A stretch of DNA of 36,939 nt from assembly GCA_004322205.1 (NCBI GenBank), contig SCSN01000004.1, forward strand, positions 1 to 36,939. Direction: 5' to 3'. Source of the stretch: Patescibacteria group bacterium. Its GTDB lineage: Bacteria; Patescibacteriota; Minisyncoccia; Phycocordibacterales; Zambryskibacteraceae. Each line of letters opens with the position of its first letter. Positions within the stretch are counted from its first letter, which is position 1. The notes under the pieces were generated by a model. That model saw nothing but the letters and a program-made list of their open reading frames with translations. It had not been told where the DNA came from and searched no databases. Below are positions 14,866 through 29,114 of the stretch, piece by piece. Both the position numbers and the translations under genes were made by a program.

Positions 14866-14931
14866 CGCCAGATGGGAGACTAAGGAAAGGAAAATTGCAA
14901 AAGTGTTTTATTGGTTTAATATATGTGCTAT

Positions 14932-15678
14932 ATGACTGACGACGAACATTGTGCCCGGGTCAATTTACCCGAAAAACAGCTTCATAGAGTCCCTCTCTCG
15001 CACGCCGAAATGCACCGTGCAACACAAGAGCGGATTTACGAAATTTCCCGCGAATTCGAACAGGGCTTCAAATTTCTAGAGCGGTTTCCAAAGTCGGTAA
15101 CATTTTTCGGATCAACTAGGGTCTCGGATGGTCACCCAGACTATGATCACGCTCGGCTTCTCGCCGGGAGAATTACCCGCGAACTCGGCTATTCAGTGGT
15201 AACGGGCGGCGGTCCCGGCATCATGGAGGCGGCCAATCGCGGTGCCAAGGAAACCGGCGGGCACTCTGTCGGCCTAACTATCCGTCTGCCCAAGGAGCAG
15301 GTGATGAACGACTATCTCACCGAACACGTTGATTTTTACTATTTCTTCAGCCGAAAAGTCTGCCTCGCCTATTCGGCAGAAGCTTTTCTGTTTTTCCCGG
15401 GCGGCCTCGGCACCCTTGACGAATGTCTCGAAAATATCACCCTACTCCAGACTCACAAAATCCCGTCCGTACCTGTTATTCTTGTTGGCGATGGTTATTG
15501 GGAAAATTTCCGCGAGTTTTTGCGGAAGAATCTTCTCGAGCGCAGGACAATCGATCCGGAAGATCTCGAACTCTTCACTATCGAGAATGATGATGAAAAA
15601 ATTCTCTCTATCATCAAGTCGGCACCAGTGAAAGAGTTCGTCCCCTACAAAGGTCTGCGGGTCAATCCTATTGAATAA
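14932..15678 (+). CDS. LOG family (TIGR00730-like) nucleotide phosphoribohydrolase-type protein
   Basis: VTGGGPGIMEAANRGAKETGGHSVGLTI and PGGLGTLDECLE motifs. Confidence 0.85.
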   Translation: MTDDEHCARVNLPEKQLHRVPLSHAEMHRATQERIYEISREFEQGFKFLERFPKSVTFFGSTRVSDGHPDYDHARLLAGRITRELGYSVVTGGGPGIMEAANRGAKETGGHSVGLTIRLPKEQVMNDYLTEHVDFYYFFSRKVCLAYSAEAFLFFPGGLGTLDECLENITLLQTHKIPSVPVILVGDGYWENFREFLRKNLLERRTIDPEDLELFTIENDDEKILSIIKSAPVKEFVPYKGLRVNPIE

Positions 15679-16112: not shown

Positions 16113-16691
16113 CTAACGGACTTCCATCTGGCGTCTGATGTGCGTGAAAGGCAAGATCGCTATCTTCCCGTTCTCGCACACGACTACCTCCAAGTCCTCC
16201 TCGGAGAGGGCGCTCTGGACATGCACCAGAACGCTGTCTCCATCTTGGAAGACGAAAAGGGAATCACGCCAGAGCCGTTCCCTGCCATCCAGAGAGTGCG
16301 ACCCTCGCCCCCACGAGAGCTCTTGCGGTGAACCGCTGTACCTCCTCACCCACCCATCTCGAGTGCCGATCGGAGCAGCCGATCTGGTGATGATTCGCAC
16401 CAGATGGAGTGCCGTGAGAATTCCCATTGTTCCTTGCAGAAAGAGTGCGCTGGGATCTCCCGGCCTCTGGAACTCCGGATAGGCCCGGAAGATACGACCA
16501 TCCTCTGCAAGCGGAGGGTTGTTCTCGGAGAGTGGAATGAAACGCTGAACTCGTCTTCCTTTACCGCTTTCCCCGAGCGATATACTCCGCTTGCAGACAA
16601 CTAAGCCCGGTTCCAGAATGTGGTTCGCGACAGTGTAGAGCACTATTCCCCCTTTTCTTATCTTGTTGGTTTTGTGTTGTGCGCGCGACAT
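16113..16691 (-). CDS. Hypothetical protein (ORFan)
   Basis: ORF with SD GGAG before ATG (MSRAQHK..) and promoter TTGACC-N17-TATCTT at 16709-16737. Confidence 0.65.
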   Translation of the reverse strand: MSRAQHKTNKIRKGGIVLYTVANHILEPGLVVCKRSISLGESGKGRRVQRFIPLSENNPPLAEDGRIFRAYPEFQRPGDPSALFLQGTMGILTALHLVRIITRSAAPIGTRDGWVRRYSGSPQELSWGRGSHSLDGRERLWRDSLFVFQDGDSVLVHVQSALSEEDLEVVVCENGKIAILPFTHIRRQMEVR

Positions 16692-16739: not shown

Positions 16740-16893
16740 AAAAAACTCGAGGCGCGCCTCGAGCCGGTGAAGACTAGGTACGGAAACCCGCTTCCCTGTC
16801 GGGGGGAACGAAGATGGCAGGTTTGCTCTGGCTTGATGAGCTGGCGGACCCACCAGCGACACTGCAACCGTATCCGTACCCAGTCTTCAGATC
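16740..16893 (-). ncRNA. Candidate structured small RNA (about 150 nt, unassigned family)
   Basis: TTGACA-N17-TATCCT promoter, 17-bp closing stem (16873-16889 with 16768-16784), internal hairpins, terminator hairpin CTCGAGGCGCGCCTCGAG + TTTTTT. Confidence 0.6.
16746..16763 (-). terminator. Terminator hairpin CTCGAGGCGCGCCTCGAG followed by T6 on the minus strand
   Basis: Perfect 18-bp palindrome with A tract on the plus strand. Confidence 0.8.
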
Positions 16894-16900
16894 TATTGTA

Positions 16901-16929
16901 AGGATACAAAAACGCTTTACTTCTGTCAA
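16901..16929 (-). promoter_or_regulatory. Sigma70-like promoter TTGACA-N17-TATCCT for the candidate sRNA
   Basis: -35 at 16924-16929, -10 at 16901-16906. Confidence 0.65.
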
Positions 16930-16968
16930 GAGATATGCGGCGGCGGGCTTATATTGCTTTGGTATTTC

Positions 16969-17370
16969 CTACTCGGCCTCCCCGTGTAAAAGCCACTCTA
17001 TAGCTTCTTCTTTGTTGCGAAAACCCTTGAGATTTTTTCGGCCGGAGAGCGCTACCACCACGTCCTCCGCCATAATCATATACTGGGTGCCCCCAAAGGT
17101 AGCGGTGCGAAGCACATACGGCTCGTTTTCTTTCATCAGGGCGACGAGCTGCGTTACCACTTCGGCGTCATATTGGTGCAACTCGGAAATATCGATCAGG
17201 CAGAGAACCCTCTCTCCTTTCTTATCAAAAAGACTTTTGATTGTCTCCTTTACCTTTTGCGCCCACTCGGCAAATTTCGGCAGGTGGCGCGCCTCTAAAT
17301 TTCCCCCGATGGTTACGTGAACAACATCGGAAGTACCAACAGAGACTTCAAGTTTCACTCCGTTTTTCAT
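16969..17370 (-). CDS. Conserved hypothetical protein, possible STAS-like fold
   Basis: 133-aa ORF; VHVTIGGNLEARHLPKFAEWAQKV..RVLCLIDISELHQYDAEVVTQLVALMKENEPYV has a STAS-like beta/alpha pattern. Confidence 0.5.
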   Translation of the reverse strand: MKNGVKLEVSVGTSDVVHVTIGGNLEARHLPKFAEWAQKVKETIKSLFDKKGERVLCLIDISELHQYDAEVVTQLVALMKENEPYVLRTATFGGTQYMIMAEDVVVALSGRKNLKGFRNKEEAIEWLLHGEAE

Positions 17371-18802: not shown

Positions 18803-19053
18803 TTCCTCCTGAACAAAATCCGAACTTTTTACCAAACGAATCCTGACTAAGGAAGCCAGCCCGCCGCCGCTCGCTACCACTCGCCACCCAGCAAAAAAGT
18901 TTTCTCTGCATTTCTGATTTTGCGCGCGCCGGATTTCTTCTTCCCCGCCTGCGCCGAGGCTTCAGCGGGCAGGTAAAAGGAAAAGAAAACTTTTTTGCTG
19001 GGTTCTGCTCTCTCCGGCGAAGCCGCGAGGCAACCTTTCAATCTTATCCTTGT

Positions 19054-23628: not shown

Positions 23629-24468
23629 TCACGGTTGACTTCTATCTGTTTCGCCAGACTCTCTGTAAAAAACCTTATTACCGAAGCGAAGATCCAGAAC
23701 TGCGGCAGTGAGTTTACCACCATTCAACAGTCCCAGTTTCGGGTCGCTCAAGACCGACTCCAAATTCGAAAAGACTCGCTCGAGGTCGGCATTTGCTTCA
23801 AAAAGAATTTCACTTCCGGGCGCCACGGCAAGACGCACGTCACTCTCCGCCGTGAGAGTAAGCGTCTGCGGCTCAAGCCGAAGACCTTTCAGCCGCTCAA
23901 CCAGAGCGGCGAGGTTTGCAAAGAGCTTGCGCTCGATGGGATAGATTCCCAGTACTTTGCCGGGCAACTCTGAAATATAAACAAAGTAGAGCCTGGGCGG
24001 CACTTCCGCCACTGCGTCAAAAGCAAAGCCTTCCTTATCAATGAAATAGCACGATTGGGAAGACACTTCCCCGCCGCACCAGACTGCCGCCGGTTCACGC
24101 TCCTCGATAGAAAGAGTGAGCACATTGCGCCCAAGCTCGAGATCCACTGCAATGCGCGCAATGCGCGGGAACTGCTCTCTAATCTTTTTTTCGAGCGCTC
24201 CCTTCGGATAGAAGAAAATGTTGGCGCGAGAAAAAAGACGCGCGTAATTGCCGGCGAGAGCGGTTTGGGCTGTCGCTGCTATCGCCTCGCTTGTCACAAC
24301 CGAGTTGCCCGAGATCTCAACAGTGCGAATCTGCAAATACCGGTTCTGGGAAAAAAGCACCGGACCGCCCAAGAGAGCGATAAGAAACATGCCGCCGAAA
24401 GCGATTCTTTTGAGTAGCCGGAGCCGCTGCTTTCGTCGCAATTTTGGAGATCGGAGAAAAGCTCGCAT
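23629..24468 (-). CDS. FtsQ/DivIB-like POTRA domain protein
   Basis: N-terminal TM, QIRTVEISGNSVVTSEAI (POTRA), PRIARIAVDLELGRNVLTLSIEEREPAAVWC. Confidence 0.75.
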   Translation of the reverse strand: MRAFLRSPKLRRKQRLRLLKRIAFGGMFLIALLGGPVLFSQNRYLQIRTVEISGNSVVTSEAIAATAQTALAGNYARLFSRANIFFYPKGALEKKIREQFPRIARIAVDLELGRNVLTLSIEEREPAAVWCGGEVSSQSCYFIDKEGFAFDAVAEVPPRLYFVYISELPGKVLGIYPIERKLFANLAALVERLKGLRLEPQTLTLTAESDVRLAVAPGSEILFEANADLERVFSNLESVLSDPKLGLLNGGKLTAAVLDLRFGNKVFYRESGETDRSQP

Positions 24469-26849: not shown

Positions 26850-29114
26850 ATGGCGGGAAAAGTTTTAATTGTTGAATCGCCGGCGAAAGCGAAGACAGTT
26901 TCAAAATATCTTGAAGGCGAGTATGAAGTGATCGCTAGTGTCGGTCATATCCGTGATCTGCCAAAAGGGAACAATGCCATCGACATCGAAGGCGGTTTCA
27001 TCCCTCACTATGAAATTGTCAAAGGTAAAGAAAAGGTAATAGAGAGCATCAAACGCCACGTTGCCAGAGCCGACGAAGTACTTCTTGCCACCGACCCCGA
27101 TCGCGAAGGAGAAGCAATTGCTTGGCACATCGCCCAAATCATCAAAGATGATTTGGGAAATTCAAAATCCCCTGCCCGTCCCCGCCTCGCCGGCAGGCAG
27201 GCGGCAGGCGGGAAAATTCAAAGCTCGAAAAGTAAGGGTCAAAAGATAAAGAGAATCACATATCACGAAATTACAAAAGAAGCTATTCAAGAAGCGCTGA
27301 AGCACCCACGTGACATAGATATAAATTTGAAAACAGCGCAAGAGGCCCGGAGAGTGCTTGATCGTTTGGTTGGCTATGACCTCTCGGGGCTTATCTGGAA
27401 GAAGGTGCGCTATGGATTATCCGCCGGCAGAGTGCAGTCCCCCGCCTTACGCATTCTTATGGAGCGGGAGCGCGAAATCCGCGCTTTCCTGCCGGAGGGA
27501 TTTTGGACGATCGCCGGGCAATTCAAAACCGAATCCGGCGACACCATTACCCTAACCTGTGAAGAAGAACCGCGTGACAAAAAAGAAGTTGATCGTATTG
27601 TTCGTGTCGGCAAGGCGAAACAGTGGTCAGTTGTTGATGTTAAGGAAACGGAAATAACGAGAGTTCCACGGGCGCCTTTCATTACCTCTACACTCCAGCA
27701 GGCCGCCAGTTCGCGGCTCGGTTTTTCACCCTCGCGCACTATGAGAATTGCCCAGCGGCTCTACGAAGCAGGGCTAATCACCTACATGCGAACGGATAGC
27801 ACAAGCTTAAGCGTCGCCGCTCAAAAGCACATTGCCGGGGTAATAGAGGAGAAGTTCGGAAAAGTAAATCTCTCCCCGCGAGTCTACAAAACCAAAAGCA
27901 AAACTGCCCAAGAGGCCCATGAAGCAATCCGCCCCACTGACGCTTCAAAGGAAGACGCCGGCGCAAACGAAGAGCAGAAGAAACTCTATAAGCTCATCTG
28001 GCAAAGGACAGTGGCCTCACAGATGGCAAATGCCAGAATTCTGCGCACCAAAGTCTCGGCAAACGTTACAAGCAAATCAATACCAGATTTTTCCGTCGTT
28101 GGTTCAAGAGTGCTCTTCGAAGGATGGCTCTCTGCAGACCCGCGAGCCAGACAGGAAGACATCGAACTTCCAAAACTTAAAGCGGGCGATCCGCTGACAC
28201 TTCTTTCTCTTGACTCCCAAGAGAAAGAAACGACCCCGCCACCGCGCTACTCCGAAGCCGGTCTCATCAAAGAGCTTGAAAAACGAGGCATCGGGCGCCC
28301 CTCGACATATGCCACTATCGTTGAGACGCTTGTGAACCGCGGTTATGTCACGAAAATTGAACGCTCACTCATGCCCACCGACACCGGCGATGTTGTCAGC
28401 TCGTTTCTGGAGAATAACTTCGCAAAGTACATCAGCGACTCCTTCACAGCCGAAATGGAAGACGAACTCGACGAGATTGCAGACGGCAAGCGTGAGTATG
28501 TTGCAACTTTGAAGAGTTTTTACGCGCCATTTTCCAAAGACGTTAAGGCTAAAGAAAAAATTGAAAAAATCACCACTTTGGGAGAGGCGGACAAAAAGTG
28601 GAAATGTCCAAAATGCGGGAGCGGTATGGTAATTAAACTCGGCCGCACCGGCAAATTCCTCTCCTGTGAGCGTTTCCCCGAATGCCACGGCGCGCGCACT
28701 ATTGACGGCGAGGCTCTCGATGGTCCCAAAGACACGGGTGAGGTTTGTCCTGAATGCGGCAAGGGTACGCTTGTTGAGCGCGACGGAAAATTCGGCAGAT
28801 TTATTGCCTGTTCCCGCTATCCCCGCTGCAAATACGTCAAACGAGACGAGGCAGAATTGGAAAAAATGAATACCGGAGTGAAATGCCCGCTCTGCGGCGA
28901 CGGTCTCATGATGGAACGGCGCGGGCGATACGGAGTGTTTTACTCGTGCAGCAATTATCCCAAATGCAAGAATGCCATAAAAGCAAAACCAACGGGACGC
29001 CTCTGCGACCTCTGCGGCTCGCTTATGATGCAAGGCACAAAGATCATACCAGAACGGTGCAGTAACAATAAATGTCTTAATTACAGACCAGATAAATTAG
29101 GCAAGCTGAAGTAG
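26850..29114 (+). CDS. topA: DNA topoisomerase I (with in-frame insertion)
   Basis: MAGKVLIVESPAKAKTVSKYLEGEYEVIASVGHIRDLP, LLATDPDREGEAIAWHI, TYMRTDSTSLS, GIGRPSTYATI, several C-terminal zinc ribbons. Confidence 0.97.
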   Translation: MAGKVLIVESPAKAKTVSKYLEGEYEVIASVGHIRDLPKGNNAIDIEGGFIPHYEIVKGKEKVIESIKRHVARADEVLLATDPDREGEAIAWHIAQIIKDDLGNSKSPARPRLAGRQAAGGKIQSSKSKGQKIKRITYHEITKEAIQEALKHPRDIDINLKTAQEARRVLDRLVGYDLSGLIWKKVRYGLSAGRVQSPALRILMEREREIRAFLPEGFWTIAGQFKTESGDTITLTCEEEPRDKKEVDRIVRVGKAKQWSVVDVKETEITRVPRAPFITSTLQQAASSRLGFSPSRTMRIAQRLYEAGLITYMRTDSTSLSVAAQKHIAGVIEEKFGKVNLSPRVYKTKSKTAQEAHEAIRPTDASKEDAGANEEQKKLYKLIWQRTVASQMANARILRTKVSANVTSKSIPDFSVVGSRVLFEGWLSADPRARQEDIELPKLKAGDPLTLLSLDSQEKETTPPPRYSEAGLIKELEKRGIGRPSTYATIVETLVNRGYVTKIERSLMPTDTGDVVSSFLENNFAKYISDSFTAEMEDELDEIADGKREYVATLKSFYAPFSKDVKAKEKIEKITTLGEADKKWKCPKCGSGMVIKLGRTGKFLSCERFPECHGARTIDGEALDGPKDTGEVCPECGKGTLVERDGKFGRFIACSRYPRCKYVKRDEAELEKMNTGVKCPLCGDGLMMERRGRYGVFYSCSNYPKCKNAIKAKPTGRLCDLCGSLMMQGTKIIPERCSNNKCLNYRPDKLGKLK
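27133..27213. repeat. Palindromic segments in the topA insertion
   Basis: CCCAAATCATC aaa GATGATTTGGG (27133-27157) followed by a GC-rich CCTGCC/GGCAGG segment. Confidence 0.7.

Follow-up and report, generated by a model that had tools for sequence, protein, structure and literature searches.

The minus strand of the window, by which we mean the whole stretch of 36,939 nucleotides analysed here, carries a short segment between a STAS/SpoIIAA-like gene and an orphan gene (gene X), flanked by a promoter-like site and an intrinsic terminator, raising the question of whether this segment is a gene for an RNA and, if so, of which kind. As judged from sequence features, there is about an even chance that the segment is a small RNA gene in its own right, stand-alone and non-coding, in a bacterium of the Zambryskibacteria family (Paceibacterota, CPR). 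That RNA would be a fast-evolving, lineage-restricted orphan of a known general kind, an assignment that is probable rather than proven. The genome carrying the window (G000; 667 kb, 18 contigs, completeness 100; the window corresponds to contig C10) is the sole representative of its own genus among the genomes examined and thus offers no close relative for covariation work. The nearest relatives of the STAS gene are Candidatus Zambryskibacteria records, a more distant relative being a Candidatus Paceibacterota record.

The gene order comprises DoxX, STAS, the RNA and gene X on one strand, followed by the convergent Pterin_4a and LOG genes, with FKBP located farther out. The features of the locus are the following:

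16969..17370, minus strand: STAS/SpoIIAA-like gene upstream of the RNA, same strand (PF11964, 24.8 bits, just under the cut-off of 25)
16924..16929, minus strand: -35 hexamer TTGACA, exact consensus
16901..16906, minus strand: -10 hexamer TATCCT, 17-nt spacer from the -35 hexamer
16740..16895, minus strand: predicted small RNA, ~150 nt, running from the expected start through the last T of the T run, as delimited by promoter and terminator
16873..16889, minus strand: 5' arm of the closing stem P1, UGAAGACUGGGUACGGA, pairing probability 0.8-1.0
16830..16869, minus strand: basal helix of P2, GGUU/AGCC, enclosing the apical hairpin, pairing probability 0.76-0.86
16840..16857, minus strand: apical hairpin of P2, GCUGGUG-GGUC-CGCCAGC, pairing probability ~0.9
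16784..16824, minus strand: putative third helix P3, AAACCUGC..GCGGGUUU with UUCCC/GGGAA, pairing probability 0.07-0.24 (basal) and 0.23-0.52 (apical)
16768..16784, minus strand: 3' arm of P1, UCCGUACCUAGUCUUCA, pairing probability 0.8-1.0
16746..16765, minus strand: intrinsic terminator hairpin with a 9-bp stem, pairing probability ~1, followed by T6 at 16740-16745
16113..16643, minus strand: gene X, orphan, downstream of the RNA, with a GTG start at 16643 preceded by GGGGGAA
15671..16060, plus strand: convergent Pterin_4a gene, a synteny anchor with counterparts in genomes G004 and G005
14923..15678, plus strand: convergent LOG-family (lysine decarboxylase-like) gene, a synteny anchor

Gene X displays a promoter-like site of its own (TTGACC-17-TATCTT at 16737-16709), and neither relatives nor a Pfam match were found for it; its reading as a homologue of gene Y of genome G003 was dropped, as BLASTP returned no alignment between the two. 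The orphan proteins encoded at 16113-16643 of the window and at L008:2000-2653 are devoid of Pfam matches and mutually unalignable, and both adjoin the convergent LOG locus, in two genera; the LOG-adjoining site is a variable slot for orphan genes in these two genera. An open reading frame antisense to the RNA (16814-17320, plus strand) was discarded as spurious, the genome scan being based on codon-scored gene calls.

The promoter TTGACA-17-TATCCT, predicted from sequence, matches the sigma-70 consensus at 10 of 12 positions, and transcription would be expected to start at about 16893-16896. Both this minus-strand promoter and the terminator hairpin with its T6 tail (16765-16746, then T6) had been pointed out in a preliminary description of the locus, and both are present.

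The predicted fold is organised around P1, a 17-bp closing stem comprising 16 Watson-Crick pairs and one GU pair, and around the apical hairpin of P2, elements that the preliminary description had likewise proposed and that are recovered with pairing probabilities of ~1.0 and ~0.9, respectively. Two further proposals fare less well: the third helix (AAACCUGC/GCGGGUUU with UUCCC/GGGAA) reaches pairing probabilities of about 0.1-0.5 only, so that P3 is poorly determined in the model, and a GGUUGC/GCAAACC switch only 0.05-0.08. The fold energy including the terminator is -72.3 kcal/mol, compared to a mean of -51.1 for shuffled sequences (z = -5.35); the body without the terminator retains z = -4.6, with equally stable structures in 0/500 shuffles, and the P1 closing-stem score is matched by 2/5000 dinucleotide shuffles. 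The folding model thus describes a clamp and one sure hairpin, with a poorly determined 3' half, which is less than the fully specified RNA first envisaged.

In a genome-wide scan, every intergenic terminator of G000 (n=161) was scored for a closing stem next to it and for a promoter upstream. A closing-stem score of at least 15 and a promoter matching at least 10 of 12 consensus positions occur together at a single terminator out of 161, namely that of the RNA unit, which also displays the top stem score (21.0), the runner-up (19.5) having no promoter. The stem by itself is less striking than its combination with the promoter, because long inverted repeats with arms 40-250 nt apart are common in G000, many of them in intergenic elements resembling terminal inverted repeats (TIRs). 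Such repeats include MITE-like intergenic elements of 90-150 nt with long inverted repeats starting ACCC.. (ACCCCCCACT.., ACCCAGCA..), present in several copies in G000 (window 18885-19002; C13:21525-21654, 23861-23990 and 28120-28249) and once in another family (L009, about 1930-2070). Near-perfect inverted repeats of 27-28 bp, ~235 nt apart, also lie within predicted coding sequence at C16:11024-11314 and C5:14859-15150, an A/T-rich arm being nearly identical between both.

Outside its own genome, the RNA has counterparts by place: in two other genera, represented by G004 and G005, the same syntenic slot (DoxX, RNA, convergent Pterin_4a and LOG) holds a promoter-RNA-terminator unit, with DoxX, Pterin_4a, LOG and FKBP confirmed in G000 and G005, and Pterin_4a and LOG in G004. 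In G004, which belongs to another genus of the same family, the STAS gene is followed after 7 nt by TTGACA-16-TAGCAT, an RNA of ~185 nt, a 13-bp terminator and the convergent Pterin_4a and LOG genes; among 47 terminators (159 kb scanned) this syntenic unit is the only one with a promoter matching at least 10 of 12 positions. The closing helix of the G004 RNA, GGUGCGG/CCGCACC, is ordinary (328/5000 shuffles), and the fold is no more stable than shuffled sequences (z +0.2); the structural claim for the G004 branch is weakened because this stability is no better than chance. The third genus, represented by G005, displays DoxX, an FAD oxidoreductase, TTGACA-17-TATTGT, a structured domain, a terminator, convergent Pterin_4a and LOG, and FKBP. 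The structured domain of ~75 nt comprises two hairpins enclosed by a 13-bp closing stem; this stem is reached in 0/5000 shuffles, and the fold with the terminator has z -6.5. The G005 unit was scored separately, since the terminator scan missed it owing to a bulge in the terminator, and no other unit in the 825 kb scanned combines such a stem with such a promoter.

The G000 and G004 RNAs show a weak colinear similarity from the transcription start, with a local score reached by 34/1000 shuffles. With rule-based ends, the end-free score is reached by 42/3000 GC-matched genomic segments (p~0.014); with hand-trimmed ends the count is 0/2000, a figure that overstates the case. The inner part of P1 keeps 7 bp in G004, including one compensatory change from A-U to G-C, which in a comparison of only two sequences is no proof of the stem (control 239/500). 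Between the G005 and G000 RNAs sequence similarity is absent, so the case for orthology of the G005 unit is made on place and design only. Because the same slot is filled in two other genera, one of them with a weakly similar RNA, there is partial support for an ancestral origin of the transcription unit within part of the family. Some approaches to homology were set aside: a MAFFT alignment including promoter and terminator misaligned the promoters; TAGAT at the transcription start is unspecific as a mark, with ~60 post-promoter matches family-wide vs 4 in the reversed control; and STAS does not serve as an anchor beyond the family, the gene occurring in 19/397 genomes and an RNA unit having been seen behind it in G000 and G004 only.

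Searches by sequence and by model find the RNA in its own genome only. A blastn search of 40 relatives returned no homologue, the RNA being single copy in G000; a single-sequence covariance model run on 397 genomes of the order matched only itself; and the G004 RNA found no match by blastn in 297 genomes, a sample without a positive control. Viral, plasmid and phage collections gave no meaningful match, and the open-access literature searched yielded no mention of small RNAs in these CPR bacteria. No Rfam 15 family reaches its gathering threshold on the RNA unit, the matches in the window being three tRNAs only, and the counterpart RNAs of G004 and G005 have no Rfam match either. The best sub-threshold match, suhB/mmgR (RF00519; 22.4 bits vs a gathering score of 41), is a weak likeness to the 3' part of the RNA, mainly to the terminator and neighbouring bases. 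The Rfam search suggested in the preliminary description therefore yields no family at the gathering score, and its statement that the RNA matches no recognised signature of 6S, SRP, tmRNA or RNase P is borne out, each being excluded, unmatched or located elsewhere in the genome.

That the RNA might nevertheless be a divergent member of one of these four housekeeping classes is most improbable. Its size and stand-alone gene structure fit, and neither 6S nor SRP RNA was otherwise found in G000; tmRNA (RF00023), however, lies at L103:2673-3074 (100.9 bits), and a P4 motif pair resembling that of RNase P lies at C6:3787, on a contig without a gathering-level RNase P match. With 6S RNA (RF00013) the candidate shares the character of a stand-alone RNA with a closing stem, but it is shorter and its interior is branched, whereas 6S forms a rod that has no branches and opens into a large bubble at its centre; a covariance search of G000 with the 6S model gave no match, at a limited sensitivity (5/14 controls detected). 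As for SRP RNA, RF00169 is unmatched at E<=1 in all family genomes (0/31; controls 13/14), and no SRP54 GTPase (Ffh/FtsY, PF00448) exceeds the Pfam cut-off in any of them (0/31; controls 14/14). Identity with SRP RNA was rejected because, with the SRP54 GTPases below cut-off in 31/31 genomes, such an RNA would have no partner; apparently, the entire signal recognition particle (Ffh, FtsY and SRP RNA) has been lost from the family. The rRNAs of G000 are also located elsewhere than the RNA unit. The 16S gene (L121:12530-14828) spans 2.3 kb (model 1.5) and the 23S gene (L122:5134-10135) 5.0 kb (model 2.9), oversized genes with large insertions, probably introns; a weak match to group II intron domains D1-D4 lies outside the 16S span, at L121:12159-12247.

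The main and strongest rival is that the segment forms a structured 3'-UTR of the STAS-domain gene, in which stem and terminator end and protect the mRNA; a small RNA might be released from this 3'-UTR, and the internal promoter would be minor or spurious. It owes this rank to the lack of a terminator between STAS and the RNA: the gene, located on the same strand, ends ~40 nt upstream, making read-through possible, and the G004 RNA likewise lies directly behind STAS. A location immediately behind a gene on the same strand, possibly with a terminator common to both, is also that of small RNAs derived from 3'-UTRs with an internal promoter. Such an origin is possible but somewhat doubtful, given that an exact TTGACA with good spacing precedes all three units, such promoters occurring at only 3/161 terminator units of G000, and that G005 has the unrelated FAD oxidoreductase in place of STAS and yet retains the RNA unit, a departure from 3'-UTR-derived RNAs. 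A very small protein encoded by the locus is quite unlikely. Frames are open, namely a TTG frame of 51 aa (16929-16774) and a GTG frame of 42 aa (16862-16734); a suggestive match is the peptide ANLPS, which recurs in a G004 frame with third-position differences only (longest common peptide 5; 7/400 shuffles), and the family has promoter-small ORF-terminator cassettes as well as few Shine-Dalgarno sites. The frame sharing ANLPS, however, has no stop ahead of the terminator, indels in the G000/G004 alignment that are not multiples of three break every frame, and peptide homologues are absent across all the sequence searched, as are Pfam matches. Codon scores in all frames of the locus (2.7-6.9) are below the gene average (mean 11.2, sd 5.2). 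The conserved ORF that would have spoken against an RNA is thus not seen. The missing Shine-Dalgarno site is weak evidence against coding, since SD-like cores precede only 72/608 called gene starts of this genome (~12%). Cassettes of promoter, small orphan ORF and terminator recur in the family at L065, L067, L073, L082 and L084, at a position of about 1500. It is very unlikely, lastly, that the arms of P1 are TIRs bounding a mobile or MITE-like element whose promoter and terminator are accidental. Many intergenic elements of G000 are indeed bounded by long inverted repeats, but these typically start ACCC.. (e.g. ACCCCCCACT), unlike the RNA stem; the unit is not multi-copy, as MITE/TIR elements are; and direct reading of its flanks reveals no visible target-site duplication.

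Returning to the stand-alone small RNA, the proposal of a novel structured RNA stands in so far as the unit has no Rfam match, no conserved ORF and the same layout in two other genera, and falls short in its weak third helix and switch. Sequence and statistics suggest a sigma-70 type promoter, an intrinsic terminator and, between them, an RNA clamped at both ends by a long closing stem that encloses one stable hairpin or more. RNA polymerase would produce a transcript of ~150 nt, whose 17-bp clamp and terminator hairpin would keep exonucleases from either end and so make the RNA stable, and exposed segments, including the GGUC loop and the C-rich stretch around UUCCCCCCGACA, may act via base-pairing or protein binding. 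The sequence would turn over fast, as expected of regulatory small RNAs. A role of the C-rich loop as an anti-Shine-Dalgarno element was rejected, gene X ranking 65th of 608 and pairing with ribosome-binding sites being no better than for shuffled loops.

Among bacteria, regulatory small RNAs of the orphan intergenic type are 100-200 nt long, and the candidate resembles them in a predicted promoter of its own, structure, intrinsic terminator, narrow distribution and fast sequence turnover; it differs in its very long closing stem. A bolder reading, which we regard as unlikely, is that of a new structured-RNA class in which the design (promoter, long closing stem, inner hairpins, terminator) and the position in the genome persist from genus to genus although nearly all of the sequence has been rewritten, in a CPR lineage seemingly without SRP. 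If true, this would be an RNA family conserved in position but not alignable in sequence; otherwise, the RNA would be one more orphan small RNA. Being clearly delimited and having counterparts by position in other genera, the candidate offers a concrete target for metatranscriptomics and would test the recognition of RNA genes by place and design once their sequence has become unalignable.
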